Source: a virus
Reading direction: 5' to 3' (one strand)
Length of the DNA stretch: 34,188 nucleotides
Virus record (IMG/VR): IMGVR_UViG_3300023284_002089
Coordinates: 1-34,188 of that record
Of the stretch, positions 5,883-31,702 are shown in pieces. The notes beneath the pieces were generated by a model. The model did not search any database and was not told the DNA's origin. It saw only the letters and a list, made by a program, of their open reading frames with translations. Both the position numbers and the translations under genes were made by a program. How positions within the stretch are numbered: position 1 is the first letter of the stretch; every line of letters starts with the position of its first letter.

Positions 5883-6614
5883 CTAAGTTTGGGTTTGTGA
5901 CTGGGCCTTCCCGGCATCATATTTTGCATAGGCGGCGTTTCTATCTTGCTCACTTATGCGTCCGGCTGCGTAGTCCCGGTCAATTTTCATTATGTCGTTT
6001 TCAGTCACCTTAGAATCACCTGGGGGAGTTCCACCTCCACCGCCGTTGATAATAGGGGGACCGTCCGTTTTGTACCAATGAGGACGCGACTGTTTGAGGG
6101 AGTCAGCAAATTCCTTAGCCCCTTTTACAGTGATGTGTCCTCTAGCCGACACGTCAACCTCAACCCCCTTGAAATCTAGGAGCTCGAGATCTGATATGGC
6201 TTCACTTCTTAACCCATCTTTTAAGGCGTGCTTTTGCACTTCTTGGAACTTGTTCTGTCTGATCACAGCTACGTTGAGCTTGTCGTATTCACCTTTTGCA
6301 GCTTCAGCTTCAGCTTTGTACTTGTCAGCCAGCCCCTTGAAATCCTCTTTTGCCCTAAGCTTTTCGGATTCCACATCACCCAAAGTTGTTTCGAGTTCCT
6401 TGCGACGTGTCTTCTCTTTGTGCATGTCATCAAGGACTCTCTGATGATTTTCCCAGGACACCATCCTAGGGGAACCTCCAGCACCGCCGGGGGTTTCATC
6501 AGTCTTTCCTGTGGGATTGGGTTTTGTATTCGCCGAAGAATCATCGGTCTGAGTCGATGGAGCACCGCTACCATCGGGGGGAGCACCGCTTTCCCCTACT
6601 TTAGTTTCAGCCAT
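5883..6614 (-). CDS. Capsid scaffolding protein
   Basis: A 243-residue, highly charged protein directly upstream of the capsid gene. Residues 1-50 are disordered and rich in Ser, Pro, Gly and Thr. Residues 55-125 are predicted coiled coil (HQRVLDDMHKEKTRRKELET and following). The C-terminal part is Gly-rich and ends with a short charged helix region (RISEQDRNAAYAKYDAGKAQ), typical of the capsid-binding tail of scaffolds. It would nucleate procapsid assembly and leave before packaging. The AAGGAGAT ribosome site is good. The type is known from many phages; the assignment here is from order and coiled coil. Confidence 0.75.
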   Translation of the reverse strand: MAETKVGESGAPPDGSGAPSTQTDDSSANTKPNPTGKTDETPGGAGGSPRMVSWENHQRVLDDMHKEKTRRKELETTLGDVESEKLRAKEDFKGLADKYKAEAEAAKGEYDKLNVAVIRQNKFQEVQKHALKDGLRSEAISDLELLDFKGVEVDVSARGHITVKGAKEFADSLKQSRPHWYKTDGPPIINGGGGGTPPGDSKVTENDIMKIDRDYAAGRISEQDRNAAYAKYDAGKAQSQTQT

Positions 6615-6651
6615 TATTTTATCTCCTTTTGGGTTTTATTGAAAGCATGTG

Positions 6652-7197
6652 TCAATTCCTTTTCTTGGTAATCTTGTCAAACTTCTTAAGTAAAACCTTA
6701 AAATATTCATCCCTTACCTTCGCTGCGAACCGTTCTTTTCGCCTTGGATTCGGGATGGTTGGCCGCTTAGGTTGGGAGTTGGCTCCCTCACGGTGGCCCT
6801 TTTCTTTCAAGATAGATTCTGCCTTATCGTAACCGATTTCAATCCTTATATTTTTTCCACGTTTGCCGCCCTGCAAAACTTTGTGCCCTAGGTCTTTCAT
6901 GAAGGCTCCAGAGAGTTTTAAATTCACTGGGCGCTTTCTTTTACTGGGAAATCTGCGCTTCACTGTATTCGGATATCCGCGAGGATCGTTCGCCCGCTTG
7001 TACCTAGGAAACCGCTTAGGCCAGCCTCCTCCACGGATAGGGAAGATCCCCTTAGCTATTAGGCGCTTCATGGCCTTCACCATGTTTTTGCCTATCTTAT
7101 TTGTTTCGGCTGAAGTCAGTGGAGTTTTCAGTTTGTTGAGTTTGCGCTCAAGCCCCCGAACGGCCTTGTCATTGAATTTGGCCTTGAAGCTTCCCAT
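6652..7197 (-). CDS. Head-tail joining / minor virion protein (gp10-like)
   Basis: A 181-residue, very basic protein (Lys/Arg about a quarter of residues). The N-terminus has a helix of the type seen in HK97 gp10-like and Mu gpG-like virion-morphogenesis proteins. A later segment, NLKLSGAFMKDLGHKVLQGG, matches the common layout of a conserved L-S-G-x-h turn followed by beta strands. The start overlaps the upstream gene's stop (TAATG), so the two are probably coupled. It lies between the portal and scaffold genes. Function is inferred from family resemblance and position. Confidence 0.5.
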   Translation of the reverse strand: MGSFKAKFNDKAVRGLERKLNKLKTPLTSAETNKIGKNMVKAMKRLIAKGIFPIRGGGWPKRFPRYKRANDPRGYPNTVKRRFPSKRKRPVNLKLSGAFMKDLGHKVLQGGKRGKNIRIEIGYDKAESILKEKGHREGANSQPKRPTIPNPRRKERFAAKVRDEYFKVLLKKFDKITKKRN

Positions 7198-9362: not shown

Positions 9363-10667
9363 TTAAAGAACCTTCTCCACTCTCATAGGTCTTTTGCGCC
9401 GGACTGGAAACTCATAATCCATCATATTTTTGATCCCGTCTAGGTGATGGCTACGCTTGGGATTGGATTTGTCGATTTCGAAGATGCCCTTCTTAAATAT
9501 ACACTGCTCCAAGTCAGCAATCACGTCTGAGCATTTCTTGTTGATTATGGCCCCATCGTTCTTAAACGTCCTGTTGACCGCGTTTATGCAGTCTCGGACG
9601 GAAAGCTTGGTTTTATATTTTAAAACTCGGTACCCATGCTCACGAAGGATATCAAAGTCTGTGTAGTGACTCTTGGTGGATCTGCCCACACCAGCCGGAT
9701 CGGGGTAAATTGTGATGCCAGGCCAGTTGCCTGCGCCGTCTTTTCTGACGCCGAGCGCCGTAAGCTTTTCGTCGAGGACCTTGCAGAACTCCCAGGTGTT
9801 GGAGTCCATGATTTGGATTTGATCAAAGCACTGCAAGCGGCGCGTGGTGTACTTGCTAGTTCTATGGTCATAGCCTGTCTGCCTTAGCTGCCAAAGAGAG
9901 CCGCACATAGGAGCCACGTTGAAATCTAATGGCACCCAGATATCTTCAGCTTCCAAATAGTTCACTCCATCAGCGGTGTGCTTCATCCGGTCAAAGGCAT
10001 GAACGCAGCCCTTACCAGAGAGATTCACCCACTTGCCCCCGATGTACATTTCAGCTTCAGGCCCGTCATAGTCTTCTGTGAGTTGATCAAAGTAGGTTTC
10101 GTGAACGTATTTGTTTTCCCTGGCGTCCCCGATGATGAGATCAGTGTCAGGGCGGGGCTTCTCGATGAAATAATCGTACGTCCAGTTAAAGCCTTCGGGG
10201 GTGCCGCTTGCAATGAACTGGAGGCGCTTTGCTTTCTTGTGCCTTATCCTGCCCATCAACATTTTCACGGCCATCTCTGTACAGGACGCTATTTCATTCA
10301 CGGCTCCCCAGGCGTAGTTAGGCCCCTTGATAGAGGCTCCATCATCTTCGGAGTGGTGGATGTACATAGTGGCCTGAGCGTTTGGGAAAAACCAAACGAG
10401 ATCAGTCTTGTTGTATTTGTAGCGGATTTTATTCTCAGCACAAATTTCTCTAAAGAGGGGGAGAACGTCCCGCTTGTACATCTTGATGCTTGGGCAGAGC
10501 ATACCGCCTGGAAGCCCCCGGTTTAGATCCATGAGCTGAAAGCATTTCATGTCCAGGGAATATGTCTTGCCTCCACCGAATCCCGTCGATAGAAGGGCCT
10601 TAGGCTTAGTGGATTCGTGAAACTTCTTTTGGTAGGAGATCGACCTGTAATCGTAGTCTATCTTCAT
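9363..10667 (-). CDS. terL: Terminase large subunit
   Basis: The 434-residue DNA packaging motor. Walker A is GFGGGKT at residues 29-35. Walker B is YAWGAVNE at 118-125, with catalytic Glu125. The coupling motif SGTPEG is at 154-159. The C-terminal RNase H-like nuclease contributes acidic residues in PLDFNVAP (about 248), YPDPAG (about 320) and HHLDGIKNMMDYEF (Asp410, Asp417). It pumps DNA into the procapsid through the portal encoded next door. Only a weak AGG lies before the ATG, so translation may be coupled to the small upstream gene. All required motifs are intact. Confidence 0.95.
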   Translation of the reverse strand: MKIDYDYRSISYQKKFHESTKPKALLSTGFGGGKTYSLDMKCFQLMDLNRGLPGGMLCPSIKMYKRDVLPLFREICAENKIRYKYNKTDLVWFFPNAQATMYIHHSEDDGASIKGPNYAWGAVNEIASCTEMAVKMLMGRIRHKKAKRLQFIASGTPEGFNWTYDYFIEKPRPDTDLIIGDARENKYVHETYFDQLTEDYDGPEAEMYIGGKWVNLSGKGCVHAFDRMKHTADGVNYLEAEDIWVPLDFNVAPMCGSLWQLRQTGYDHRTSKYTTRRLQCFDQIQIMDSNTWEFCKVLDEKLTALGVRKDGAGNWPGITIYPDPAGVGRSTKSHYTDFDILREHGYRVLKYKTKLSVRDCINAVNRTFKNDGAIINKKCSDVIADLEQCIFKKGIFEIDKSNPKRSHHLDGIKNMMDYEFPVRRKRPMRVEKVL

Positions 10668-13191: not shown

Positions 13192-13274
13192 TAAGGGCCC
13201 CCGATCAGGTAAATCGTCATGGCCATGAAAATTCCAAGAACCGTACTGATTTCAATAATCATCGATGCTTCCAT
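13191..13274 (-). CDS. 27-residue membrane miniprotein
   Basis: A frame encoding MEASMIIEISTVLGIFMAMT and ending YLIGGP, essentially one transmembrane helix. An excellent ribosome site (GGGGAGGGTGGC) precedes the ATG. It overlaps the lipoprotein gene upstream by 16 bases and the next gene by one base, so the three are coupled. A lysis or membrane-modulating role is possible. The quality of the ribosome site is the main support. Confidence 0.55.
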   Translation of the reverse strand: MEASMIIEISTVLGIFMAMTIYLIGGP

Positions 13275-13585
13275 GCCACCCTCCCCACGGTAAATTGACA
13301 ATTTCCATGCCAATGCAGTCCATCTTCCAATTCGATGAGTTCGGGGCCATATTTTTCATCTTCGTTCACGATTTCCCAGGTTGAGCCATCGATTTTGACG
13401 ATTGGGACTTTGCAAACTCTGCCAAGCCTCATCTGCTCGGTTCCGGTGGGGGGCCTGATGTGTGCGAGTGGGTTCAGTGTCGCACAGCCCGTGAGCGCGC
13501 TAATCACTATGTACATGAGTGCCATCAGCATAATTTTGAAAAACTCTTCCCGCCAGTTACCGTGCGGTGACTTTCGTTTTCTCAT
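13259..13585 (-). CDS. Small lipoprotein
   Basis: A 108-residue protein with a long basic n-region (MRKRKSPHGNWREEFFKI), a hydrophobic stretch and the lipobox ALTGC at about residues 30-34. After lipidation about 74 residues would remain, ending in a basic VGRVAWKHR. AAGGAGGTAAGCA precedes ATG, a strong ribosome site. Phage lipoproteins of this size include outer spanins and superinfection-exclusion proteins. Its distance from the endolysin argues against a classical spanin pair. No family is recognised. Confidence 0.7.
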   Translation of the reverse strand: MRKRKSPHGNWREEFFKIMLMALMYIVISALTGCATLNPLAHIRPPTGTEQMRLGRVCKVPIVKIDGSTWEIVNEDEKYGPELIELEDGLHWHGNCQFTVGRVAWKHR

Positions 13586-13729: not shown

Positions 13730-13879
13730 ATGGATAGGCTCTATCGTTTGTCTGTGATTGCGACTTGCGGATTCGTATTACTGGTGGGCTTACTTGCCCT
13801 TGCTGGGCGGCTCACTCTTACCTGCGACAAGCTTGGCGCACTCGACGTCTGTTATCTCAAGATGCGTTCGATCCAATAG
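13730..13879 (+). CDS. 49-residue membrane protein (tentative)
   Basis: Encodes MDRLYRLSVIATCGFVLLVG, continuing hydrophobic to about residue 28, then a short Cys-containing tail (LTCDKLGALDVCY). This fits a single-pass membrane protein or a signal-anchored peptide. It has an extended -10 box immediately upstream but no Shine-Dalgarno. It overlaps the 3' end of the opposing secreted-protein gene by 90 bases, which lowers confidence. Confidence 0.4.
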   Translation: MDRLYRLSVIATCGFVLLVGLLALAGRLTLTCDKLGALDVCYLKMRSIQ

Positions 13880-14101
13880 AAAAGGTTTTTCTGGAGGGCA
13901 GTCTCCTCTTACAACTCTGTCTAGGCAGGCTTGTGCGAAAACCCAGAGTGTCGACATGGGGCCCACGTAGGACTCAACTATTTTGAATTCTCTGTTGAAG
14001 GAAAGCCACATGCATCTCTCAGCGTGGGCTGAGATACCAAAGCAGGCCAAGCACGATAAGACTGAAATAAAGCGGAATATCCTCCACATTATTTCCCCCA
14101 T
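13790..14101 (-). CDS. Secreted Cys-rich small protein
   Basis: A 103-residue protein. MWRIFRFISVLSCLACFGIS and the following AHA form a Sec signal peptide, with cleavage expected after AHA near residue 27. The mature part has four Cys (in ERCMW, AQACLD, GDCPP and DVECAK), suggesting two disulfides in the periplasm. The gene is divergent from the secreted-protein gene at 14139. No family is recognised. Some phages make exported proteins that block entry or act in lysis, but there is nothing specific here. Confidence 0.6.
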   Translation of the reverse strand: MGEIMWRIFRFISVLSCLACFGISAHAERCMWLSFNREFKIVESYVGPMSTLWVFAQACLDRVVRGDCPPEKPFLLDRTHLEITDVECAKLVAGKSEPPSKGK

Positions 14102-14138: not shown

Positions 14139-14867
14139 ATGAAACCCCCATTCATTGCCCTTATTCTTTTTGCCGTGCCCCTCTTCGCTGATTCATCTCT
14201 ACTTGAGCTTGACGCTGATAGGGCGACGGATCTCGAAATGGAAGCCCAAAGCGATGGCAAAAGAATGAGCGCAAGGCGTGAGGCCTATGCCCTGCAAAAA
14301 GATGTTTTAAATGGCAAGCTCGCTAAGCGCACAGATAAAGCAATCGGTGCCATCTTGGCCCGCACCGTTCGGGAACTCAATAAGCGCAAACACTACTACG
14401 AAGCCGAGCGCATTGAGCATGAGTGGCGGGTGTACCACCGTGGGTTTATCTATGCCATCCAAGCCTCAGGAGGGCGCGACGTCGGGGATCATCCGGGCCT
14501 CAAGTTTTTGATAGACGTTCATAAAAAGGCTGAAGACCTCCTTGGGGAAACGCTTTGTAGGGGATTGCGAATACATGACCTATGGACTCTGGCCTACACC
14601 ATTCCTCTGGTGTTTAAATGCAATGGGAACTACTTCATTGACCTTGAGGAATACACAAAGCACCTAAGCCCCTTCGTTGGGATAATCGGTTATTGGGGGG
14701 CTTTCATTGCGTGCTCGGCAGCCACCAGCGGGATCGGTGCTTTCTTTGTTTGCCCCATTCTCTCAAAGGGAGTCGAGGTCATCTTGGTGCGCTATATCGT
14801 TCCAAGAATAGACAATCCGCTCTTTAAGCGGGCTTGCGGGAAATCTGAAAAGGTTCCGCCAACCTAA
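14139..14867 (+). CDS. Exported protein of unknown function
   Basis: A 242-residue protein. MKPPFIALILFAVPLFA is a Sec signal peptide, cleaved before DSSLLELD. Residues 20-110 are charged and helical (RREAYALQKDVLNGKLAKRT; RKHYYEAERIEHEWRVYHRG). Around 175-215 there is a hydrophobic, Gly/Ala/Cys-containing segment (VGIIGYWGAFIACSAATSGI) that could insert in a membrane. It is a lone plus-strand gene in a minus-strand region and converges with the helix-turn-helix gene, overlapping it by four bases. This looks like an independently transcribed accessory (moron-type) gene. Function unknown. Confidence 0.75.
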   Translation: MKPPFIALILFAVPLFADSSLLELDADRATDLEMEAQSDGKRMSARREAYALQKDVLNGKLAKRTDKAIGAILARTVRELNKRKHYYEAERIEHEWRVYHRGFIYAIQASGGRDVGDHPGLKFLIDVHKKAEDLLGETLCRGLRIHDLWTLAYTIPLVFKCNGNYFIDLEEYTKHLSPFVGIIGYWGAFIACSAATSGIGAFFVCPILSKGVEVILVRYIVPRIDNPLFKRACGKSEKVPPT

Positions 14868-18019: not shown

Positions 18020-18878
18020 CCGTATAAACAATATCGTCAATTGAGGCCCCATCAATCAATTGTCTCGCATCAAAAGACGCCACACTTTGGCCATCGCCTT
18101 CGTTGTCTTCTATGATTTTCCTCACCATTTCCACCATTTTCTTAACGTTTTTTTCAGCATCTCGCCACAACACTAGTCGATGAATTTCATCGCAGGTATA
18201 CCAATCGGGGTTCATATATGCGGGAAACCTGGTTTGGTAACCAAGCGTTGGCCTGGTGACGTGTCTTTTTAGAAAAGTGGTTTCTCGAATAATGGAATCC
18301 CAACTCCACAAATGACCTGAGCCAATTTGAGGAGTAGCCTCGATATAAGTGCGCACGCCTAGGCTTTTTAGCATTTTCATGAAATGAAACTGATAATGAT
18401 CCGGGCCACACTTTTGGGAAGCATCAAAGCCTATGGAGCATCCCGCATTGATAGAGGCTTTGTAGCTAATCCAAAGCTCTCGAACGATGTTGTCTTGGGT
18501 GTTGCTGTATGGATTGTTTATAAGCGAGATGTAGTAAGGATCGATGACGGGTGATCCCAGGTAAGAAATCACCTCCACGCCTTGCTTCACTAATTTCTTG
18601 ATAGGGGCTTGAAAGCTATAGGCAAGCCAAAGGAGCTTGGCCCTTACGGCATCTCTGTATTGAGTTGCCCGCATGGTGGGCCATTGGGCAACGACGCCGA
18701 AGGGGTTGTGAAACTGAACTCTGGGTTTCACCTTACCCTTTAGCCATTCAATATCTTTCATCACTACATCTTCAATAAAAACTGGCCAGGGTTTTTCTGG
18801 GGAAATGATACCGACATATCTCTTCTCTGGATCTCTTCCCGTCCAACCGATGGCATATCTCAAAACGATAGAATTCAT
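18009..18878 (-). CDS. Hypothetical protein, possible TIM-barrel enzyme
   Basis: A 289-residue soluble protein. Repeating strand-helix blocks are seen: VKPRVQFHNPFGVVAQW (about 50-66), GVEVISYLGSPVIDP (about 100-114), INAGCSIGFDASQKCGPDHY (about 145-164), SLGVRTYIEATPQIG (about 172-186). Conserved-looking acidic residues at strand ends (D114, D154, E181) are what would be expected of a barrel hydrolase, for example a glycoside hydrolase. This is pattern recognition only. It lies downstream of the ceramidase-like gene in the same orientation, which makes a joint surface-modification role thinkable. Confidence 0.6.
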   Translation of the reverse strand: MNSIVLRYAIGWTGRDPEKRYVGIISPEKPWPVFIEDVVMKDIEWLKGKVKPRVQFHNPFGVVAQWPTMRATQYRDAVRAKLLWLAYSFQAPIKKLVKQGVEVISYLGSPVIDPYYISLINNPYSNTQDNIVRELWISYKASINAGCSIGFDASQKCGPDHYQFHFMKMLKSLGVRTYIEATPQIGSGHLWSWDSIIRETTFLKRHVTRPTLGYQTRFPAYMNPDWYTCDEIHRLVLWRDAEKNVKKMVEMVRKIIEDNEGDGQSVASFDARQLIDGASIDDIVYTAND

Positions 18879-18888
18879 TATGGTCTCC

Positions 18889-19122
18889 TTAAGTAGTTTT
18901 GTTGTTTTTGGCTAATAATTGAATTGCATCATAGGTCGCCACATCTATTCTTGCGATCTGAAACAAAAGAAAGGCGCTCTGACACTCTCTTTGTGTCATC
19001 GATGGGCTAGCTTTTTTTGTGTGCTTTACGTCTCTTTCCATGATGACTCTTAGTTCCAGAAACCGGTCCCTGATTCTCACTGCTAATTTCTCTGCATCTG
19101 ATAGCGGTTTGCTTCCACTCAT
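18889..19122 (-). CDS. 77-residue hypothetical protein
   Basis: A helical, basic N-terminal half (EKLAVRIRDRFLELRVIMER) and a C-terminal helix (FLLFQIARIDVATYDAIQLL). No Cys pairs or signal. It starts inside the 3' end of the upstream small membrane protein gene in another frame (116-base overlap), so one of the two may be mis-started. Function unknown. Confidence 0.55.
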   Translation of the reverse strand: MSGSKPLSDAEKLAVRIRDRFLELRVIMERDVKHTKKASPSMTQRECQSAFLLFQIARIDVATYDAIQLLAKNNKTT

Positions 19123-19207
19123 TTAGTACCTCTGTGAATTGCCAGATCAAAACCATGAGCCCCATGGTCGTGATTAAGAATCCGGCTATGGCAAGTTGCT
19201 CAGTCAT
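19007..19207 (-). CDS. 66-residue single-pass membrane protein
   Basis: Starts at ATG 19207 (MTEQLAIAGFLITTMGLMVL), chosen because it overlaps the upstream stop in an ATGA. One hydrophobic helix spans about residues 5-25, followed by a basic tail (KSHHGKRRKAHKKS). GGGGAAAAC precedes the start. An N-out/C-in small membrane protein of unknown function. It overlaps the next gene heavily, which is unusual even for phage. Confidence 0.55.
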   Translation of the reverse strand: MTEQLAIAGFLITTMGLMVLIWQFTEVLNEWKQTAIRCREISSENQGPVSGTKSHHGKRRKAHKKS

Positions 19208-19398
19208 GTTTTCCCCGGCCAATGCTCGGCATACTTAAACTTAAGGCTTACCCCTCTGTTTCGGCAGAGATTGCTACATGTTGCTCGCCGCCGCTTAAGC
19301 CCCCGGTGGTCTCTAAATTTAAACGGTTTCCCGCACACCACACAACGTAGTTTGAATTCGTGATAAGGCAGTTCGCATTTGGGGCAATACTTCTTCAC
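19204..19398 (-). CDS. Zinc-finger small protein
   Basis: A 64-residue protein, MKKYCPKCELPYHEFKLRCV and following, with three Cys pairs (CPKC, CVVC, and CSNLC near residue 45). The first two form a ribbon; the overall Cys layout resembles small phage zinc-finger proteins. It overlaps the ceramidase-like gene by four bases (ATGA), so is translated with it. A nucleic-acid-binding regulator is plausible. Confidence 0.7.
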   Translation of the reverse strand: MKKYCPKCELPYHEFKLRCVVCGKPFKFRDHRGLKRRRATCSNLCRNRGVSLKFKYAEHWPGKT

Positions 19399-20117
19399 CT
19401 TATCCCCTTATAGAATACATAGGCGTAGTAAAATGCCCAACTATTGAGCAAATGCCAAGAGCTGTGCCAGGTAAACCAGTGGTTATCAGGAGTGCAAACC
19501 AGGCCTAACTGATCTACCCACCACAGGATATAACTGGCTGCAAAGACCATGCCTAGGGCGATGAGGGGTTTGTATTGAGTCATCACCATGGTGCCGCTAG
19601 ACAACCTGTATTGATTGAGTATTTCTATTGTGAGAGTGTCACCATTCAATATCTTTTTTAGTTTAAACCAAAGCACCGCCTCCAGCACTACCCAAGCGAC
19701 CGTCTGAGCAATAAATAGATTGATGCCAATAGGATGGCTAATAAGAAGTGTGACAGCGGATCCAATGACTACCCCCCAGTAAAGAAGTTTCGGGCGCTTC
19801 AGCCCAAGCCTCGCAGCATTTTTCGCAATGAAGAATGCTGAAAACATAAACATCGAACTCACATCTAGGAACTCCCCCCAGAATGTATTTGTGGCATGGA
19901 ATAGGGTGCTCCCAATAGCGACCGCAAGGGCCGACACTGGGAGCATGAACAGTCCGAGTTTCTTGTCTCGTTTGACAAGCCTAAATAAAACGATGGCTAC
20001 AATGAAATAGCCCAGGTTTGAAACCGTGTCAGCGGGGTGAACTATCCAACCGCATAGATCGGCTTCGCAGAAAGAGACTGAGCCGCGTTCGAATTGGGAA
20101 TAGGGGCAGCTAGACAT
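19395..20117 (-). CDS. CREST-superfamily membrane hydrolase (alkaline ceramidase-like)
   Basis: A 240-residue protein with about seven hydrophobic helices. The ATG at 20117 is chosen because GGATGGAGTTATTGGC lies before it; a longer TTG start at 20150 is less likely. Superfamily hallmarks are all present: CEADLC...PADTVSN near the N-terminus (the calcium-site region of alkaline ceramidases), Ser70 and His74 in GSTLFH, Asp85 in EFLDVSSM, and His218/His222 in HSSWH. Ser, Asp and three His form the zinc hydrolase site in this family. Known members cleave ceramide amides; related ones are receptors. The substrate here is inferred. The gene is embedded among zinc-finger genes and overlaps both neighbours. 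Confidence 0.85.
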   Translation of the reverse strand: MSSCPYSQFERGSVSFCEADLCGWIVHPADTVSNLGYFIVAIVLFRLVKRDKKLGLFMLPVSALAVAIGSTLFHATNTFWGEFLDVSSMFMFSAFFIAKNAARLGLKRPKLLYWGVVIGSAVTLLISHPIGINLFIAQTVAWVVLEAVLWFKLKKILNGDTLTIEILNQYRLSSGTMVMTQYKPLIALGMVFAASYILWWVDQLGLVCTPDNHWFTWHSSWHLLNSWAFYYAYVFYKGIR

Positions 20118-20385
20118 GCCAATAACTCCATCCTCTCTTCCACATATCAAGAGGGATTGTGCATAGCTTACAAAAGAATCTGTCTATCTCGCCGTCATGG
20201 TACCAATGGTGCATGCAGCTCTTGCGCTTCAGCCGCCTGGCGTCTCGTTGATGGGGGAAGTCCTGCCAAGTGAGTTGGTGCCCGCAATCGGGGCACCTTC
20301 TCTGTCTGTTGGTTACACCAGTTTTGAGGACTGGTAAGTCAGACTTATTAACACAATCCATCCACGAACAATAGGCGAAACTCAT
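20110..20385 (-). CDS. Zinc-binding small protein, first gene of the minus accessory operon
   Basis: A 91-residue protein with CPDCGHQLTW in the middle and further Cys/His (KSCMHHWYHDGEIDRFFCKL), then CTIPLDMWKRGW. This gives two probable zinc sites. The start has AAGGAAGAG upstream and is divergent from the replication module across a region of repeated AGTAAAT sites. It overlaps the next gene's ATG by eight bases. A regulator is plausible; no family is recognised. Confidence 0.7.
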   Translation of the reverse strand: MSFAYCSWMDCVNKSDLPVLKTGVTNRQRRCPDCGHQLTWQDFPHQRDARRLKRKSCMHHWYHDGEIDRFFCKLCTIPLDMWKRGWSYWHV

Positions 20386-23309: not shown

Positions 23310-24083
23310 ATGGAACCAAAACACGCCGAAATACCCCCCGCACCGGGGCCAACCATGCCTACCAGTAGGGTTGTACACAGGCCCCAGATCCCCATAAACA
23401 AGCCTGGGAAGATCGACAAGCTCATTCCGCTAATCATGAATGATATCAAAGCGGTGGGGAAGGAGGGCAAGAATGCCCAACAAGGATTTGCCTTTCGCAA
23501 GGTGGATGATGTTTATAACCACATCAATCCCATCATGGCCAAGCACGGGGTGTATACGACTCACATGATAATCAGTCGCAGCGAAAAACCAATTAAATCA
23601 AAGCAGGGAGCACTCGGTGTTCACAGAATCAATACCTACATTTTCTTCTACCGCGCTGATGATGGTTCCTATGTCACCACTGAAGTTGATGGGGAGGGGA
23701 TTGATTATGGGGATAAGTCTAGCAACAAGTGCCTTTCTATCGCAGACAAATATGCGCTTGTGACCACCTTCAAAATTCCAGTAAAAGACATTCAGGATCC
23801 AGATGGAGAAACGCCCGAAACAAATGTGGGTGGCAAGCCGGGGAAGAATGCGCCCAATACCGAGGCTCTTAGTAAGTGCATTTCCAAAAAGCAATTAAGC
23901 AGGCTTTATGCGATTGCCAAAAAACAGGGCTGGGATGATGCCGCCCAGAAGGAGCTACTCAAGAAATGGTCTTTCACAAAATCGAGAAGTGAGCTTCCTG
24001 ACGGCATCTATCAATCCTTTTGCGAATACATGGAAAAATATCTAGGGCCAGCGCAAATGAAAAAAGGGACTCCCACTAAGTAG
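23310..24083 (+). CDS. erf: ERF-family single-strand annealing recombinase
   Basis: A 257-residue protein. Residues 1-35 are Pro-rich. The ERF domain follows: IPLIMNDIKAVGKEGKNAQQ, GFAFRKVDDVYNHINPIMAK, then a variable segment, DGSYVTTEVDGEGIDYGDKS, and SIADKYALVTTFKIPVKDIQ. F-x-F-R-x-x-D-D-V-Y-N and G-x-G-x-D-x-G-D-K-S are diagnostic. ERF rings anneal single-stranded DNA and help circularise or recombine phage genomes. The C-terminal 60 residues are helical. GGAGGAAGAAAA precedes ATG. It is the last gene of the plus operon. Confidence 0.9.
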   Translation: MEPKHAEIPPAPGPTMPTSRVVHRPQIPINKPGKIDKLIPLIMNDIKAVGKEGKNAQQGFAFRKVDDVYNHINPIMAKHGVYTTHMIISRSEKPIKSKQGALGVHRINTYIFFYRADDGSYVTTEVDGEGIDYGDKSSNKCLSIADKYALVTTFKIPVKDIQDPDGETPETNVGGKPGKNAPNTEALSKCISKKQLSRLYAIAKKQGWDDAAQKELLKKWSFTKSRSELPDGIYQSFCEYMEKYLGPAQMKKGTPTK

Positions 24084-24228
24084 AAGCCCCGATTTACCTG
24101 CTAAGTACATATTGTTCTAATAATGGATTCAGTTGTAGAAATTTCATCCCTCTGCTAATCGCAGTTACTATCAAGCATACCCCTAGGGATTGCCACAAAA
24201 CAAGTCTTGCAACTCCCCCATCTACTGC

Positions 24229-25002
24229 TTAATTAATCTCGAACGGAACGTGAATCGAAATAGGCGAACCTGTCCCCTGTACCCTGAACCTTCTTAAAAT
24301 TCGGGTTGCACCCACGCCACCCCCTGGATCTGTACCGAAGGGTAAGTGGACAACAGCAACTTCCATAATTCCAAGACTGTTATTTGCCGAAAGGTTCCCA
24401 GCGTAAGACAAGTTCAGTGAACCCGTACTATAATCGGTTTCTGAAATTCTCCAATCACCAAAAATTTCCACCTTGCTGCCGGTTGTAACTTCACCCGCTT
24501 GAAGGCTATCGGGTGCCGTGAAATACCCAACACGCATGATACCCCCGTGAGCGTTACCCGTATTGCCCATATTTCTCTTTTTAAGGATATGATTGGCCGC
24601 TGAAGTTTCCACGTCGTTTTTATCTACTAACCAAGTCTCAATCACCCCAGCCGCCTGGAGTAAATCGGAATTGTAAAACCCAAATCCAAGAGACAGGTCT
24701 GAGAATTGGGAATAATTACGTGCATCTAATGACGAAGACTCGCAAGTTGAAAATTCAGCTGCGGCTGTGGGGCCAACCTGAATGGCGATGGCACCTAGTT
24801 GATCTAAGTTTAGAATCCCTTCAGAGACAGTAGGGTGGTCGCAACCGTTATTTGTTAGATCTAGAAAAGCCCTGTTGCCTGGATCAAAAACGACTTGAGA
24901 GCCCGTTACTTTAAGTTGCAGCCCAAAGGACGTACTCGCCCAAAGGCACAGCACCAGCACCGTTGAAAATAATATTTTTTTCATTTTAGTAAATAGTTCC
25001 AT
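24229..25002 (-). CDS. Sec-exported virion-domain-like protein
   Basis: A 257-residue protein. MKKILFSTVLVLCLWASTSF (from residue 7) is a clear signal peptide. The start at 25002 is kept because AAGGAGAGTGGGAA lies just upstream. The mature part is beta-rich, ending RRFRVQGTGSPISIHVPFEI. Acidic and Gly/Asn-rich strands (SLGFGFYNSDLLQAAGVIET, GSLNLSYAGNLSANNSLGIM) suggest a surface or adhesin-like structure. It is the last gene of the five-gene exported cassette. Two early Cys (NNGCDHP, STCESSS) could form a disulfide. Confidence 0.65.
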   Translation of the reverse strand: MELFTKMKKILFSTVLVLCLWASTSFGLQLKVTGSQVVFDPGNRAFLDLTNNGCDHPTVSEGILNLDQLGAIAIQVGPTAAAEFSTCESSSLDARNYSQFSDLSLGFGFYNSDLLQAAGVIETWLVDKNDVETSAANHILKKRNMGNTGNAHGGIMRVGYFTAPDSLQAGEVTTGSKVEIFGDWRISETDYSTGSLNLSYAGNLSANNSLGIMEVAVVHLPFGTDPGGGVGATRILRRFRVQGTGSPISIHVPFEIN

Positions 25003-25075
25003 TTCCCACTCTCCTTGGTTTTCATGGCCTGAGCCAGTTTTAGTTTACAATAAAAAGTGTTTTTTAGCTTACCTA

Positions 25076-25501
25076 TTATTGGTCTACGCGACCACGTTCA
25101 ACCCAGTGGCTCCCCGTCCATTGGATTTCTAGATTATCCCATTTCTCAGTACATGCCCAGTCACCTTCGAGCTTCATATTCCCAAGGGAAGGGATAGGGG
25201 CACCGTCTAAAATTTCCGCTTTATCACTTCCCGTCACAAAACACATTACAAGTAGCAGTGCCCCAACTTCATTGCCTGCGCCTACTACAAAGCTTCGATC
25301 GGCAGCCACGGTAGAATCAGAGGTTATTAAAAGTGCGGCATTATCAATCGGATCAACCAACTGATCGTCGGCTGTAATAGAGACGTTTTTTTGAACCTTA
25401 AGATTGAGGCTTCCAACGTTTAGGGCGTTGCCCTTCCAACCGACTTCTTCAGCTCCGATGGCAAGCAATGAAACAACTAATAAGGGGAATAGATATTTCA
25501 T
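25076..25501 (-). CDS. Sec-exported protein with phage fibre-type domain
   Basis: A 141-residue protein from ATG 25501, behind GGAGTAATC; a longer reading frame starts upstream without a ribosome site. MKYLFPLLVVSLLAIGA is a signal peptide. The mature protein has ADRSFVVGAGNEVGALLLVM, LDGAPIPSLGNMKLEGDWAC, and DNLEIQWTGSHWVERGR. The last part (W-x-G-S-x-W-V-E-x-x-R) is a common ending of phage tail-fibre and virion-surface proteins. Fibre-like domain plus export signal is the striking combination in this cassette. Confidence 0.7.
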   Translation of the reverse strand: MKYLFPLLVVSLLAIGAEEVGWKGNALNVGSLNLKVQKNVSITADDQLVDPIDNAALLITSDSTVAADRSFVVGAGNEVGALLLVMCFVTGSDKAEILDGAPIPSLGNMKLEGDWACTEKWDNLEIQWTGSHWVERGRVDQ

Positions 25502-25503
25502 GA

Positions 25504-25935
25504 TTACTCCAACTTTTGGGTTTGTATGGCACACCTAAAATCTACCGTCTCACTCGCCGCACCCGTTACCTTAACTTGTAAATCATTACCGCTAACAGCA
25601 TAGGTCATCGCATAACTAGTTCCAGACTGACTGAAGTCATTGACTATGGATCCCTCAATGGCCGCCGCTCCGCCTGAACGATAGGCCAATACGGTTTTAA
25701 TAAAACCTTCTCGTTTAGTGCCATCAGATTTTCTTGCTTCACAGTTTGCCCTAACTAAGTAGGTTGAGGGATCGGGCAGAGCAATTGAATGCATCACGGT
25801 TTCGGTGGCATCGGTGGTTTGAACGTCTGGGAGTTTTTCAAACGATAGGTGCTCAGTAAGTGCAAAGCCATTCCAAAGCTGTCCAACACCAAACGCATTC
25901 ATACTTAAACAAGCGAACAGAAGAAATTTAATCAT
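25504..25935 (-). CDS. Sec-exported protein with tail-fibre C-terminal domain
   Basis: A 143-residue protein. MIKFLLFACLSMNAFG is a signal peptide. The mature domain, with TYLVRANCEARKSDGTKREG, then YAMTYAVSGNDLQVKVTGAA and ETVDFRCAIQT, is a fold widespread at the ends of phage tail fibres. The two Cys (in ANCEA and FRCAI) are suitably placed for a disulfide. The C-terminal domain of the upstream 674-residue protein has the same order of elements with Cys at the same points, so the two are probably paralogous. It overlaps the upstream gene by four bases (ATGA). Confidence 0.75.
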   Translation of the reverse strand: MIKFLLFACLSMNAFGVGQLWNGFALTEHLSFEKLPDVQTTDATETVMHSIALPDPSTYLVRANCEARKSDGTKREGFIKTVLAYRSGGAAAIEGSIVNDFSQSGTSYAMTYAVSGNDLQVKVTGAASETVDFRCAIQTQKLE

Positions 25936-27956
25936 ATTGTATTCCTCTCAATGGTAGAGACACATTCCCAATCAATAGTTGAAGTAGCTTCCCCGCTGAT
26001 TAATACGAGAGCGCTGGCCGGTGTAGTAATCCCCATTGTTATCTCACATGCGTTAGCGCCTGCGCCACAATCTTGATTCATCACAAGGGTAGTGGTGGTT
26101 CCCACCTGAACAAGATCGGCCGCGCCGTCTTTTCTAAACGTGCCAACAGAAAGAAGACTCCCTCCACTTGAGCCGTCTGTCTCAATGGCTGTACATTTGG
26201 CGCTCACATCTATTAATTCATCGTTCGATAAAACTACTGTGGTAATAGTGGTTACTGTGTTATCCGTTGTGGTCGCCGTATCTGCAACAACTTCGCCCAT
26301 CCCGGCTAGGGCGTTATCAATTCCTTTTAGGATGGCGCTAAGCTCAGCTACCGTTGTCACTTCAGCGGGGGAAGTGTCTGCAACAATATTAACCAATGTC
26401 AGATCTATATCTAAAACGTCACCATCGACTTCATCAGATGCTAAAGATTCATGAGTGGAAGCGTGTGAAGCAGTACCGCCCAGGCTTGTATCAATTCCCT
26501 TTAGATGAGCGCAGAGTTGATCAGTCGCAGAGCATCCCGCCTCAGCGGTTGAGGGAGTGTAGTTGGCTGGAGTTAGCGTGCTGATAGCTCCCTGCAATTC
26601 AACATCCAGCTCATCTGATCCGCCGTCCAAGTGTGTTGCGGCGTGAGTGGTGGACGCCTTACCAAGTAAGTCTGCATCATGAGTGAACTGGGTCATCGCG
26701 TCTTGGGCGAAGACTGAATTACCCATACCGGTAATTCTGCCCCCGGCAGCCATATCTAAAGTATTGTCATGTTTAAAACAAATCCTTTTCGTAGGGAATC
26801 CACCTATTGATGTGTTGGAGCCATAACAAATATCTCTTTGGTCAAAACCAGCGTCCCCGTCCGTGGTACGAAAAGAGGAGGCGAAAAGAGTGTCTGCAAA
26901 AGCAAACCCAATGACAGAGTTAGAAGTAGAGCTTCCATCAGGGCTCCCTATAATTACACCATTGTTTACGTCTTCCCCAACCGAGACAGCTCCAGCCCAA
27001 ATCTGAAATCCTAGCAGTGTAAATAAAGCGGCGTGTACTCCCGTACTTCCTGCGACAACCCCCGATTTAGCGTAATAAATCTCAGGTCGGTTTTGCCCTG
27101 TGGTACTTGAATTTGGGGAACCGAAGGTACAAGTACCATCCCCACCCGCACAGCCTATCGCTGTCGTTGATGGGGTAGATGCCCCTGTTTCATCTTCCAT
27201 TTTCAAGACCGGATCTCCACCCATATTAATGGATAGAATTAAATCACCCGTCCCACTCAATGCCCCAGTCATGAAGTTTGTTCCATCGCGCCTTAGGTTG
27301 AGTGCGTCTGCCGTATCTTGTGACAGCTTGGTGGCAGCATCCTGAGCCAACACTGGGTTGGCAACATCGGTGATTCTGAAATTGCCCCAGGAAATATTAG
27401 CTGTAGGAGAATTTCCGCCGCCCACCTGCAAATAATTACTGTCTCCTGTGTTTAGGTTGAGTGCGTCTTGTGGGCTTGTGGCATCAGCCAATCCGGTTAT
27501 TTTATTACTGCCCCAAGGAATATCTGCAACAGGTGAATTAGTGCCGTTTAAATTTAGTTGAAGCGCTTGATTGGCATCGGCCCTGAACTGGGTCATCGCG
27601 TCTTGGGCGAAAATGGGATTGGCTAAGTCGGTAAGCCTGAAGTTGCCCCAGGAAATATTAGCCGAGGGGGAGTTGTCTCCGTTGAGATGGATTGAGAGGG
27701 GATCGGTTTCTGCACCCCCAACGACAGAATCCACGTAGGCTTTGGTGGCTCCGTGTTGTGGACTCGTTGGGTCCACTAGGTCTATGAGTTTATTCGTGCC
27801 CCAACTGATATCAGCCGTGGGCGGCCTGGATCCGTCTCTTGCAATAGAGGTAGCATCAGGCCCGCCCGCGCCGCCGCCCAGGGAACCGCCACCTGAGCCA
27901 TAAGTTGTTATTGAAAAGAAGAGCGTGAAGAGTATGGCAAAAAGGAACCTGCGCAT
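25932..27956 (-). CDS. Tail-fibre-like protein with an N-terminal signal peptide
   Basis: A 674-residue protein. MRRFLFAILFTLFFSITTYG is a strong signal peptide, then a Gly-rich linker. Residues 40-220 hold four imperfect repeats of about 40 residues (core SPxANISWGNxRxTDLAxP...QDA), as in many fibre shafts. The middle contains a Cys/Gly-rich beta domain. HAATHLDGGSDELDV is a fibre motif. The end (TTTDNTVTTITTVVLSNDEL, then STIDWECVSTIE) matches the domain of the neighbouring 143-residue protein. Two nucleotide stretches of 28 bases (26,684-26,711 and 27,584-27,611) are identical. Phage fibres normally lack export signals. Confidence 0.75.
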   Translation of the reverse strand: MRRFLFAILFTLFFSITTYGSGGGSLGGGAGGPDATSIARDGSRPPTADISWGTNKLIDLVDPTSPQHGATKAYVDSVVGGAETDPLSIHLNGDNSPSANISWGNFRLTDLANPIFAQDAMTQFRADANQALQLNLNGTNSPVADIPWGSNKITGLADATSPQDALNLNTGDSNYLQVGGGNSPTANISWGNFRITDVANPVLAQDAATKLSQDTADALNLRRDGTNFMTGALSGTGDLILSINMGGDPVLKMEDETGASTPSTTAIGCAGGDGTCTFGSPNSSTTGQNRPEIYYAKSGVVAGSTGVHAALFTLLGFQIWAGAVSVGEDVNNGVIIGSPDGSSTSNSVIGFAFADTLFASSFRTTDGDAGFDQRDICYGSNTSIGGFPTKRICFKHDNTLDMAAGGRITGMGNSVFAQDAMTQFTHDADLLGKASTTHAATHLDGGSDELDVELQGAISTLTPANYTPSTAEAGCSATDQLCAHLKGIDTSLGGTASHASTHESLASDEVDGDVLDIDLTLVNIVADTSPAEVTTVAELSAILKGIDNALAGMGEVVADTATTTDNTVTTITTVVLSNDELIDVSAKCTAIETDGSSGGSLLSVGTFRKDGAADLVQVGTTTTLVMNQDCGAGANACEITMGITTPASALVLISGEATSTIDWECVSTIERNTI

Positions 27957-27964
27957 CGTGCCCC

Positions 27965-28309
27965 CTAGTTGTTCGTATTAACCGAAAGCTCAATCGTGCC
28001 CGCTGAAATGGCAGTGTCACCCCTCAGGATAACAGTGCTTGGCAAGACAGCCCAGTCCTTGAAAATGAAAGAGGACGCGGGGATATAAGCCCCGTCCGTG
28101 CAGCCCGCCGCTGGGCCATCGGTTAAACAGAGAAAGGCATCGACAGCGGAGTTGTTTATCACGCTCCACCCCCGGCCCCCCACATTGTCAATTTGAAGTA
28201 CCCCAGCCGAAACATAGTCGCCCGGAACGGTTGTCACAGCGGCGTCTCTGATCACCGTTGCCGCAAAAATGTTTGATGAAATGAAAAGTAAGGCAAGTAG
28301 AACTCTCAT
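27965..28309 (-). CDS. Small Sec-exported protein
   Basis: A 114-residue protein. MRVLLALLFISSNIFA is a signal peptide. The mature domain (YVSAGVLQIDNVGGRGWSVI, NNSAVDAFLCLTDGPAAGC, STVILRGDTAISAGTIELSV) is a compact beta sandwich with three Cys, resembling small phage head or fibre decoration proteins. GGAGGGGTTA precedes the ATG. It is the first gene of the exported cassette and divergent from the nuclease operon. Confidence 0.65.
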   Translation of the reverse strand: MRVLLALLFISSNIFAATVIRDAAVTTVPGDYVSAGVLQIDNVGGRGWSVINNSAVDAFLCLTDGPAAGCTDGAYIPASSFIFKDWAVLPSTVILRGDTAISAGTIELSVNTNN

Positions 28310-28344: not shown

Positions 28345-28372
28345 TTGGATTTGTTGCCTACAACATTATAAC
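28345..28372 (+). promoter_or_regulatory. Promoter and operator of the plus nuclease operon
   Basis: TTGGAT (-35), 16 bases, TATAAC (-10, 28,367-28,372). The inverted repeat TGTTG-CCTA-CAACA (28,352-28,365) fills the spacer and could bind a repressor. The ATG lies eight bases after the -10, so the mRNA would be almost leaderless. Confidence 0.5.
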
Positions 28373-28380
28373 ATTGAGAC

Positions 28381-28629
28381 ATGAACTTATTAAAATTAAT
28401 GCGTCGCAATAGGCAGAATCGAAAGGCGTCTATCAAATACTTCAGCGAAGTGAAATCCATTCGTCAACTATGTTCACAGCTTGCAAAGCTTGAGGGCAAG
28501 AAATCTGAGTCCAGTATCGGCAACGTGAGGGAGCTAGTAAAACTCTTGGCAATCGCCTTGCAAAACCCTAAGGTCCTCAGACTAATGAAAGATTATGGCA
28601 AGCGCACGGCGAAAAAAAAGCTCCGCTAA
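28381..28629 (+). CDS. 82-residue basic hypothetical protein
   Basis: Basic and helical (MNLLKLMRRNRQNRKASIKY, then IRQLCSQLAKLEGKKSESSI). No signal, no membrane segment. It would have almost no leader: the promoter -10 is eight bases upstream. It overlaps the nuclease gene start by 35 bases. A nucleic-acid-binding role is likely from charge alone. No family is recognised. Confidence 0.65.
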   Translation: MNLLKLMRRNRQNRKASIKYFSEVKSIRQLCSQLAKLEGKKSESSIGNVRELVKLLAIALQNPKVLRLMKDYGKRTAKKKLR

Positions 28630-29252: not shown

Positions 29253-29439
29253 CCTTCCATGGGTTTTCTTTCATCCACTTCAATTGCTTTTCAGAGGACT
29301 CCATGAGCCTCACCGAACCCATATCGCTTCCAGCCATCTTAACCCACTTATAGAATTCTTTCACATTCTCTTCACTTACCTTGCCTCGCTTAATAAAAAA
29401 CATCAGGATTGAAAGAATCCCTTCAATGATTACGCTCAT
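29245..29439 (-). CDS. 64-residue membrane-associated protein of the lysis region
   Basis: Starts MSVIIEGILSILMFFIKRGK, a short hydrophobic helix followed by basic residues, then a charged helix (NVKEFYKWVKMAGSDMGSVR). It overlaps the lipoprotein gene by four bases (ATGA) and is third in a unit with the endolysin. An inner-membrane lysis accessory is possible. The length and single N-terminal helix would suit a small inner-spanin-like protein, but this is inference. Confidence 0.6.
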   Translation of the reverse strand: MSVIIEGILSILMFFIKRGKVSEENVKEFYKWVKMAGSDMGSVRLMESSEKQLKWMKENPWKAS

Positions 29440-30152
29440 TGTGCCTCCCTAACTGGAACGCCCTCAAACCCGACAAAGGTTATTTTAGCCTTCCTCTTAT
29501 CCCTGGTGTCGAAATGATAGTGACATTTACCTGGGCTCACCTTCAGATCAAAGCTATGGGGGGCCACCTTTTTGAAGGAATTGCAGGGGCCCCTGTCGCT
29601 TGGCTCGGGGGACACCAGTCTAATGTCTTCTTTGAATACAATGCGCTGATAACTATCTGCTTTGGCCTGGCAACTTCCCACGCCGTTGATTGTTGCCCTC
29701 GGCATCCAATTGCAAAGAAGATCGACCTTCAGTTTGTAGTTGGGATCCTCAAAGAAAATCAACGCCCAGGAATGCCTGGCCTTTTGTGAGGATTCATAAA
29801 CGTCTATCATAAGCGGGCAGGTCCTCTCTATTTCCACGGGGCTTAGGTTTTCATAGGTCCACGCAAACTTCCTGGGCCCTACTCTTATGCCAAGAAATTT
29901 CTTTGTTTTCTTCTCGGCCGAAAATGTGCCATGGCATGACTTGATGATGATCAAATCCACATCGCCTCTGGGCTCTATCAGTATGTGATATTTCTTAGCC
30001 CTTGGTACCGTAGCCACGCCTTCAAAGTAGACGCCGTTAATGGTGAGCCCTACATCCTTCTTCCAGAAAACTTTTCTATCTAGTATCTGGTGCGTAGACG
30101 CACAGGAACACAGCAATAGAACCAAGAATAAGTAGAAGAAACTTTGCTTCAT
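29436..30152 (-). CDS. Lipoprotein of the lysis cassette
   Basis: A 238-residue protein. MKQSFFYLFLVLLLCSCAST ends in a lipobox (LCSC; Cys17). The mature protein is beta-rich with Cys in IIIKSCHGTF, ERTCPLMID, LLCNWMP, GSCQAKAD, GPCNSFK and PGKCHYHF, giving several potential disulfides. It overlaps the endolysin gene by four bases. Outer spanins are lipoproteins encoded next to endolysins, but they are usually far smaller, so a different envelope role must be considered. No family is recognised. Confidence 0.65.
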   Translation of the reverse strand: MKQSFFYLFLVLLLCSCASTHQILDRKVFWKKDVGLTINGVYFEGVATVPRAKKYHILIEPRGDVDLIIIKSCHGTFSAEKKTKKFLGIRVGPRKFAWTYENLSPVEIERTCPLMIDVYESSQKARHSWALIFFEDPNYKLKVDLLCNWMPRATINGVGSCQAKADSYQRIVFKEDIRLVSPEPSDRGPCNSFKKVAPHSFDLKVSPGKCHYHFDTRDKRKAKITFVGFEGVPVREAQ

Positions 30153-30595
30153 CGAATGACACCGTAGTATTTAAGGTTCGTTTGGTTTAAACCTGTTTGA
30201 TGAAACTTACCAGATAGATCTGTGATGCCTATCCACAGTGCGCGATGATTGGATTCCCTGCTGTCTACATGAAACCCTATGGGGGATTTCATTCCTGACG
30301 CCGCATGGTTTGGGTACACCCCCACCCCCATAAAGGGGAATCTCAGGATATCGAAAATCATATTGAGCTTTCCGTATTCATAGCACTCCACCACGAAATC
30401 AACGGCCTTGCCGCTTGGGTGTTGCGAGCCAGAGGTTTCGCGTTTGCCTATACCAGAAGTGACGATGATCTTTCTTTCGATGTATTCCCTGAAGGCGTCT
30501 AGGATGAAGATAACCCCGAACTCCATTTTAGTCGGATCTCCCCAATTCTCATTGGGTTTGAAATGTTTGATGTGATTCCAGTCAGATGGCTTCAT
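30149..30595 (-). CDS. Peptidase M15-family endolysin
   Basis: A 148-residue protein. It starts MKPSDWNHIKHFKPNENWGD, the usual beginning of phage M15_3-type peptidases. SGSQHPSGKAVDFVVE supplies the zinc-binding His and Asp (S-x-H-x-x-G-x-A-x-D) and GFHVDSR supplies the second His. These enzymes cleave peptide crosslinks in peptidoglycan (D-Ala-D-Ala or L-Ala-D-Glu). No signal peptide, so a holin or other release step is needed. The gene lies in the same unit as two membrane-related genes. Confidence 0.85.
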   Translation of the reverse strand: MKPSDWNHIKHFKPNENWGDPTKMEFGVIFILDAFREYIERKIIVTSGIGKRETSGSQHPSGKAVDFVVECYEYGKLNMIFDILRFPFMGVGVYPNHAASGMKSPIGFHVDSRESNHRALWIGITDLSGKFHQTGLNQTNLKYYGVIR

Positions 30596-31012: not shown

Positions 31013-31702
31013 TTAGGTTTTGATTATAAAATTGTGCGTGATCGATGGATCCAAATGAGCATTCGTGCTGTTGGTTAATCCCGTTGAATTGGTTGTGGGG
31101 TTTTTGTTGTTGGTATGAGAGTTTGTGTTGTAATTGGTTCCTGCCCCGTCACCAGCCTGAATATTTACTCCACCTAAAACTCCTCCAGTAGTTATCCCAA
31201 TTTGTGTGCCCCCCGAATTAAAAGTATCATCGGTACCAACTTTAGCCACATACCATTGATGATTATGGGACGGGGTTGTGTGGGAATGGCTGGGGAGAGT
31301 GTGTGTGTGGGTTTCATTCCCGAATTCGTCTCCAACTACCCTAGTAGTCAGTCCCCCTCCACCCGCTGCATTATCTCCTACTGGACCGCGTGATCTGTGA
31401 TCAGGCACGTTAAAAGTCGTGGAACCATCTCCAGCCCCATAGGTTTCACCAATGACTGCGAACAAGTCAGAAAAGGTAGTTCGGCTGATTGCTTGCCCGT
31501 CACAAATTATCCACCCAGTCGGGGCACTAGCTCCCCCGTACATTCTGATTTCACCCACCAGAAGGGAGACCGCACTAGAGGTTTCCAGGTCTCCGATTCG
31601 TGTTTCGTGATCATCAAAGTTGAGCCTGACTGTATCAAAAAGCTCTTGAGTTACCGGATCGCCTGCCTCAATTTGTGTTGGATCAATTGGACTGAAGGCC
31701 AT
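31013..31702 (-). CDS. Phage tail collar-domain protein
   Basis: A 229-residue protein. Residues 45-105 are the tail collar domain: VGEIRMYGGASAPTGWIICD, GQAISRTTFSDLFAVIGETY, then GDGSTTFNVPDHRSRGPVG. The C-terminal part is rich in His, Thr and Asn (THTHTLPSHSHTTPSHNHQW), a beta-helix or fibre-tip style seen in short tail fibres and microcystin-dependent-like proteins. It has no signal peptide, unlike the cassette at 24,229-28,309. It would take part in receptor binding at the tail tip. Confidence 0.85.
   Translation of the reverse strand: MAFSPIDPTQIEAGDPVTQELFDTVRLNFDDHETRIGDLETSSAVSLLVGEIRMYGGASAPTGWIICDGQAISRTTFSDLFAVIGETYGAGDGSTTFNVPDHRSRGPVGDNAAGGGGLTTRVVGDEFGNETHTHTLPSHSHTTPSHNHQWYVAKVGTDDTFNSGGTQIGITTGGVLGGVNIQAGDGAGTNYNTNSHTNNKNPTTNSTGLTNSTNAHLDPSITHNFIIKT

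Follow-up and report, generated by a model that had tools for sequence, protein, structure and literature searches.

Why would a tailed phage encode, side by side, five proteins that resemble parts of tail fibres and that each begin with a signal for leaving the cytoplasm? This question is raised by the IMG/VR virus record IMGVR_UViG_3300023284_002089, analysed here over its full 34188 bases (hereafter the window). Between positions 24229 and 28309, five consecutive minus-strand genes, termed p1 to p5, each encode an N-terminus of Sec signal-peptide type, in contrast to ordinary tail fibres, which are made in the cytoplasm without an export signal. The original prediction for this DNA held that the products may be exported to an oxidising compartment and serve as a virion part, a receptor mask or a display structure. 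The cassette proteins are very probably true Sec-exported proteins of fibre type. The fuller account, in which an operon of fibres and fibre knobs would be exported, folded with disulfides in the periplasm and, as the leading though not the sole option, attached to virions, is considered somewhat probable. Tail fibres as such are known; what is new is export as a feature, and no new family is proposed.

Signal Peptides of the Cassette

Signal peptides were called by a rule that combines a basic n-region, an uncharged h-region of 8–15 residues and small residues at positions -3/-1. All five predicted open reading frames are present, and all pass this rule as opposed to 2/39 other genes of the window (Fisher p = 2e-5), namely 14139–14867 (+) and a lipoprotein gene at 29436–30152. 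Shuffled N-termini of the cassette proteins still pass in 5–16% of cases because composition alone holds much of the signal.

The first gene, p1 (27965–28309, minus strand), encodes 114 amino acids, with a signal at 28262–28309 and a predicted cut at MRVLLALLFISSNIFA|ATV that leaves a 98-residue mature domain with two Cys, for which no homologue was found. It is followed by p2 (25932–27956, minus strand; 674 amino acids; signal 27897–27956; predicted cut MRRFLFAILFTLFFSITTYG|SGG), the putative exported tail fibre, which carries ten Cys. The next in-frame start codon of p2 lies at residue 61 and lacks a Shine-Dalgarno sequence, and an unsignalled p2 from a later start is therefore not possible. 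The signal of p3 (25504–25935, minus strand) spans 25888–25935 with a predicted cut at MIKFLLFACLSMNAFG|VGQ, and its mature part, a predicted stand-alone beta-sandwich fibre knob of the TTDATVTT type, contains Cys49 and Cys119. In p4 (25076–25501, minus strand), a signal at 25451–25501 (predicted cut MKYLFPLLVVSLLAIGA|EEV) precedes a 124-residue mature domain with two Cys. The last gene, p5 (24229–25002, minus strand), starts at 25002 with a good Shine-Dalgarno sequence and encodes a signal (24922–25002; predicted cut MELFTKMKKILFSTVLVLCLWASTSFG|LQL) and a 230-residue mature protein with two Cys and no significant homologue found. The genes p1 to p4 are tightly packed, being separated by an 8 bp gap, a 4-bp overlap and a 2 bp gap, while p5 lies 91 bp further on. 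Upstream of p1, a single promoter-like site (TTAATA-17-TATAAT with an extended -10; 28365–28393, minus strand) was found, the total of such sites not exceeding that in shuffled sequences; a terminator-like hairpin with a T-run lies downstream of p5 (24066–24090, minus strand), and such sites are likewise no more numerous than in shuffles.

Fibre Character of p2 and p3

The identification of p2 as a tail fibre follows from family matches to PHROG tail-fibre families (PHROG 2710 tail fiber, 4.5e-14) and to Pfam Phage_T7_tail (3.7e-7), complemented by weak similarity to a tail fibre of solved structure, chiefly over its repeats. The protein is ordered as a signal, a Gly-rich linker and then repeats of the ISWG/ATKAYVD type from about precursor residue 33 (about 27282–27860), and it ends in a C-terminal knob (25935–26282). 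A cyanophage fibre with p2-type repeats carries an ordinary-type N-terminal domain at the place where p2 has its signal and Gly-rich linker.

The p3 protein is homologous to the C-terminus of p2. A two-row profile of this shared domain retrieved ten TTDATVTT-type relatives from IMG/VR (L278–L287), which are up to 39% identical to p3 and none of which has a signal peptide (0/10). Structure prediction, which the original prediction had proposed as a check, modelled p3 with confidence (predicted local distance difference test score, pLDDT, 89); the best PDB matches of this model are the tail fibre of Klebsiella phage Kp9 and Acinetobacter phage tailspikes, and among viral models it matches phage fibre and collagen/YadA-like proteins best. 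As modelled, p3 is a fibre knob. The earlier claim of fibre-type domains in at least three genes thus holds for p2, by family matches, and for p3, by homology and fold; for p1, p4 and p5, the fibre character is a matter of how the sequences look, with no database match, and the likeness of the p4 ending WTGSHWVERGR to a fibre tip was noted by eye. Searches of isolate phages by tblastn with p1, p3, p4 and p5 returned nothing useful.

Signals and Cysteines on Comparable Fibres

Signal peptides are rare on comparable phage fibres. Two IMG/VR scans, unselected for signals, served as controls. Among fibres that have p2-type repeats and whose start is intact, a genuine signal occurs in 2/74 (L008 and L081), not counting a call in L035 that is internal to its gene. 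Fibres with a conserved N-terminal domain (hereafter the N-domain) carry a signal in 3/80 cases (L102, L103, and L138), three low-scoring calls inside the domain being excluded; a further scan aimed at signalled N-domain fibres added L173, L174, and L178. The fibre of L008 (IMGVR_UViG_3300037422_000484) is the nearest relative of p2 among the fetched fibres (E 1e-49) and is itself signalled, but it is longer (1124+ amino acids), has an additional N-terminal region and belongs to a phage whose remaining genes are nearly all unrelated to the window. In L081, the signalled fibre is accompanied by a second exported protein. According to one paper, the targets of diversity-generating retroelements in phages are without the signal peptides that their counterparts in bacteria carry (PMC6199706).

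Paired cysteines in the mature domains, as originally predicted, are borne out by counts of 2, 10, 2, 2, and 2 in p1 to p5, an even number in every chain. Cys makes up 18/1233 residues (1.46%) of the mature cassette proteins as opposed to 12/3873 (0.31%) in the virion proteins of the window (p = 3e-5). Furthermore, both Cys of p3 are present in the two exported copies of the domain (p3 and the p2 knob) and in 0/10 unexported relatives, all ten of which have Val or Ile at the first position. The TTDATVTT-type knobs of ordinary phages thus share the domain of p3 and the p2 C-terminus but have neither signal nor Cys pair, and this confinement of the pair to exported copies is the pattern expected for domains that fold in an oxidising compartment. 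Signalled N-domain fibres show a Cys content of 0.79% against 0.30%, a weak difference drawn from six related rows.

Signalled and Unsignalled Mx8-Type Fibres

The N-domain, whose motif RN..G.Y[ST]LP.GNPV is common to ordinary fibres, is absent from p2, which is therefore analogous to this family rather than a member of it. Unsignalled N-domain genes begin with M[PSA]RN..G.Y[ST]LP.GNPV, whereas in signalled genes the signal replaces the initiator Met, with predicted cuts at ALA|ARN, ASA|TRN, and AWA|SRN; the predicted cut restores the ordinary N-terminus across several different signal sequences. Homologues in Stenotrophomonas phage BUCT555 and Bradyrhizobium phage ppBjS10J-1 start at the mature N-terminus. 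Homologous phages in which the same genes start downstream without a signal had been named in the original prediction as evidence that would speak against it. Such phages exist, but in them the coding sequence itself begins at that point, and the objection fails; the signalled genes have no start codon at the mature point, and the signal was therefore gained by some phages rather than read into a misplaced start.

The signalled family members include p64 of Myxococcus phage Mx8 (L173; AF396866), which matches PHROG tail-fibre families, and Mx9_p14 of phage Mx9 (OQ709411). With or without a signal, the N-domain fibre gene has the same position, after tubeB, a GNAT-like gene, p54 and the internal virion proteins (module naming after PMC10386132), and in L102 it overlaps the gene before it, with start and stop codon joined in ATGA. 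A search for signalled fibre domains, likewise suggested beforehand, found them in Mx8, Mx9 and Myxococcota prophages. The Mx8 and Mx9 fibres are 98–100% identical in the first 200 columns and 35% identical at the tip, while two neighboring genes are 91% and 97% identical; a variable tip on a conserved fibre is the usual pattern of receptor-binding fibres (PMC10386132). Structure prediction of the Mx8-type N-domain was of low confidence (pLDDT 66). In a tree of the domain, 11/13 signalled rows fall into one clade and parsimony requires at least four changes; a single origin of the signal within the family is compatible with this tree, and many independent gains are not claimed.

A family profile search across 195 genomes of the Corallococcus phylum (Myxococcota) revealed five intact prophage copies, four of which are signalled. 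In the fifth (L264, 1–2591), a long membrane helix takes the place of the classic signal at the N-terminus, and the protein is perhaps membrane-tethered. A decayed, frameshifted Mx8-type exported fibre gene was also seen in Corallococcus interemptor (L171/L257). No alignable copy was signalled in 398 genomes of the Nitrosovibrio phylum and four other bacterial loci. Including Mx8 and Mx9, signals are present in 6/7 Myxococcota copies as opposed to 0/9 others (p = 9e-4), although the compared sequences are related. Two Mx8-like tail modules with unsignalled fibres (L089 and L090) share one 72.8 kb contig (IMGVR_UViG_3300022309_000005).

These comparisons bear on the alternative by which the proteins are not exported and their N-terminal stretches are buried helices, anchor virion proteins in a membrane or are hydrophobic by chance. 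The use of rule-based calls and the longer membrane helix of the L264 prophage copy speak for it; against it, n-region, h-region and cut site are found in all five cassette proteins, the Mx8-family cut falls, for several different signals, precisely where ordinary members start, Cys is enriched and paired, and comparable fibres rarely start in this way. This alternative is highly improbable. Export thus gains support because signals stand on normally unsignalled domains, are cut where homologues start and accompany a Cys pair found in exported copies only, and the original prediction is partly supported.

Recurrence of Signalled Cassettes

The Mx8 and Mx9 loci are like the window cassette in that, at the place of the fibre gene, a Sec-signalled fibre comes first and more exported proteins with Cys come after it. 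Signal-like N-termini are found in Mx8 p66 and p67 and in Mx9_p15 (that of p67 by eye, not by rule). Both p67 and Mx9_p15 are GDSL-lipase-like; with their export-type N-termini, these proteins directly follow the exported fibre (L252, Mx8, 18820–19368; L253, Mx9, 6467–7192), and the Mx9 protein is fused to a small additional domain. A small unsignalled protein of L138 (4657–4929), whose gene has that of an internal virion protein on one side and that of the exported fibre on the other, is 41% identical to exported Mx9_p15 over the first domain, so that this domain too exists with and without a signal. Mx9_p15 and L081 each have a small exported domain, to which p1 could not be shown to be related. 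Mx8 and Mx9 differ from the window phage in being podoviruses, in the GDSL-lipase-like member of the exported set and in having no significant similarity to p2.

A further case is the Bdellovibrio phage phi1422 (NC_019525), whose fibre region encodes two signalled proteins, gp68 and gp75, next to the unsignalled tail fibres gp67 and gp73. Its relatives, phages 56, CP-T1 and ZF40, have a signal in 0/39 tail-module genes, one weak call in CP-T1 being uncounted. Like the cassette proteins, gp68 and gp75 are signalled and Cys-bearing, and one of them has the size of a single knob; unlike the window, phi1422 is a myovirus, and its two proteins are annotated as hypothetical and show no significant similarity to the cassette. 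Cassettes of exported proteins therefore recur, as seen from Mx8 p64/p66/p67, Mx9_p14/p15, the L081 pair and phi1422 gp68/gp75. The signal trait looks independent across the window/L008, Mx8 and phi1422 types because no mutual sequence similarity was found.

Proposed Destination of the Fibres

In the proposed sequence of events, the fibre and knob proteins of the cassette operon would be exported via Sec and have their signals cut off, a step that their N-termini strongly indicate. The mature proteins would then fold in the periplasm with disulfides, trimers being assumed; the Cys pattern supports such disulfide-assisted folding. At or after lysis, the receptor-binding fibres or knobs may finally meet released virions and attach to them. 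From the data at hand, we infer in vivo export, disulfide formation, trimerisation and final location. In T4 and P22, fibres or tailspikes attach spontaneously to finished particles in vitro. Virion attachment appears favoured because the Mx8 family keeps the tail-fibre N-terminus after the predicted cut, sits in synteny with virion genes and varies strongly at the tip between Mx8 and Mx9. That the cassette proteins end on virions is given a little less than an even chance.

Several points weigh against this reading. Signals were called by a simple rule, not by SignalP, and a tail-anchoring domain was not recognised in p2. The window encodes a tail collar-domain protein without a signal peptide (31013–31702, minus strand; family matches and signal rule), a candidate for an ordinary cytoplasmic short fibre, and the virion may therefore be able to do without the cassette. 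Several proteins of Mx8 are labelled virion structural proteins in its record, p64 not among them. The Mx4 fibre candidate is unsignalled, and the trait is therefore not general even among myxophages. No near relative of the window phage was found, and for none of these phages were virion proteomics or localisation data found.

The next most likely use of the exported proteins would be the coating of receptors on envelope or debris. Here, exported fibres and knobs would remain on the infected cell or on its debris and take up the receptors that the phage itself uses, keeping progeny from being trapped and rival phages out. Phages are known to use a lipoprotein, Llp of T5, as a receptor shield. 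Receptor-binding-type tips on exported proteins, the small, stand-alone and shaftless nature of p1, p3 and p4, a p2 lacking a tail-anchoring domain, and the coexistence of unsignalled fibres in the window (the collar-domain protein) and in phi1422 (gp67 and gp73) all agree with such a role, and for the window itself, which encodes a collar protein without a signal as well as several small proteins of a single domain, receptor masking is a serious rival. However, no outer-membrane anchor and no lipobox was found in p1–p5; exclusion lipoproteins of the Llp type have a lipobox Cys after the signal, as does the neighboring 29436–30152 but not p1–p5. Moreover, the sole fibre candidate noticed in the Mx8 family is the exported protein, which has an ordinary tail-fibre N-terminal domain. 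Overall, masking is rather unlikely.

Exported fibre-like proteins are also known from bacteria. Bdellovibrio encodes 21 exported phage-fibre-like mosaic adhesive trimer (MAT) proteins, in which a conserved beta-rich domain of about 130 residues directly follows the signal and an S74 autoprotease is present in 13/21 and absent in 8/21 (PMC10769870). The cassette, set beside the MATs by description only, resembles them in its phage-fibre-like proteins, signal peptides and probable location outside the cytoplasm; it differs in being viral and lacking S74, while MATs are host-encoded and often carry it. By analogy, MAT-like host adhesion is possible for temperate phages, the genes then being morons through which the infected cell or lysogen would gain surface fibres for contact with prey or surfaces. 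The Bdellovibrio precedent, the clustering of signalled phage fibres in Myxococcota phages and one Bdellovibrio phage, and the temperate nature of Mx8 and Mx9 (PMC10386132, PMC10281127) speak for this role. The genes, however, lie in or beside virion operons, several directly after virion genes, phi1422 is lytic (PMC3391216), and no match to the S74 domain (PF13884) was found in the window, which leaves host adhesion improbable. Among open-licence papers, no report of exported or secreted tail fibres or of myxophage signal peptides was found.

Gene Content of the Window

The minus strand of the window also encodes a large terminase with distant relatives in many phages (9363–10667), a major head protein (5025–5873), a tail protein (2017–3210), candidates for small terminase, portal and scaffold, and a tape-measure protein with its stop near base 122. 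At the far end of the window, a large tail-tip-like protein and the tail-collar protein accompany an M15-type peptidase that is probably an endolysin (30149–30595, minus strand; family matches) and, overlapping its gene, a lipoprotein with an LCSC lipobox and eight Cys (29436–30152, minus strand; sequence and signal rule), which likely functions in lysis (possibly outer spanin-like) or in the envelope. Three further small proteins (13259–13585, minus; 13790–14101, minus; 14139–14867, plus) have lipoprotein or Sec-type N-termini, and a ceramidase-like membrane protein (PF05875, E 2e-14; 19395–20150, minus strand) is an unusual accessory gene for a phage. The window phage seems rich in envelope-directed proteins.

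No repeat is shared between the ends of the window, and none of p5, p2 and TerL found a relative when scanned singly against IMG/VR. A myxobacterial host is unsupported, p2 being matchless in 189 Myxococcota genomes and the G+C content of 48% being low for the group; the capsid protein does match actinobacterial phages, but too distantly for a host guess.

Implications

We tentatively propose, at somewhat less than even confidence, that in some tailed phages, notably those of Myxococcota and Bdellovibrio-like hosts, receptor-binding fibres are Sec-exported, disulfide-folded in the periplasm and added to virions at or after lysis, which would amount to assembly in two compartments. If true, this would provide a route to disulfide-bonded fibre tips and add to phage biology either a step of assembly after lysis or a strategy of masking receptors. 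It would also connect the fibres of phages to exported fibre-like adhesins, of which the MATs of a predatory bacterium are an example. For the finding of receptor-binding proteins, it is relevant that a signal peptide may lead annotators to call such proteins host adhesins. Tailed phages are taught to be assembled wholly in the cytoplasm, and the recurrence of signalled fibres in the growable and mutable phages Mx8, Mx9 and phi1422 makes this assumption directly testable.

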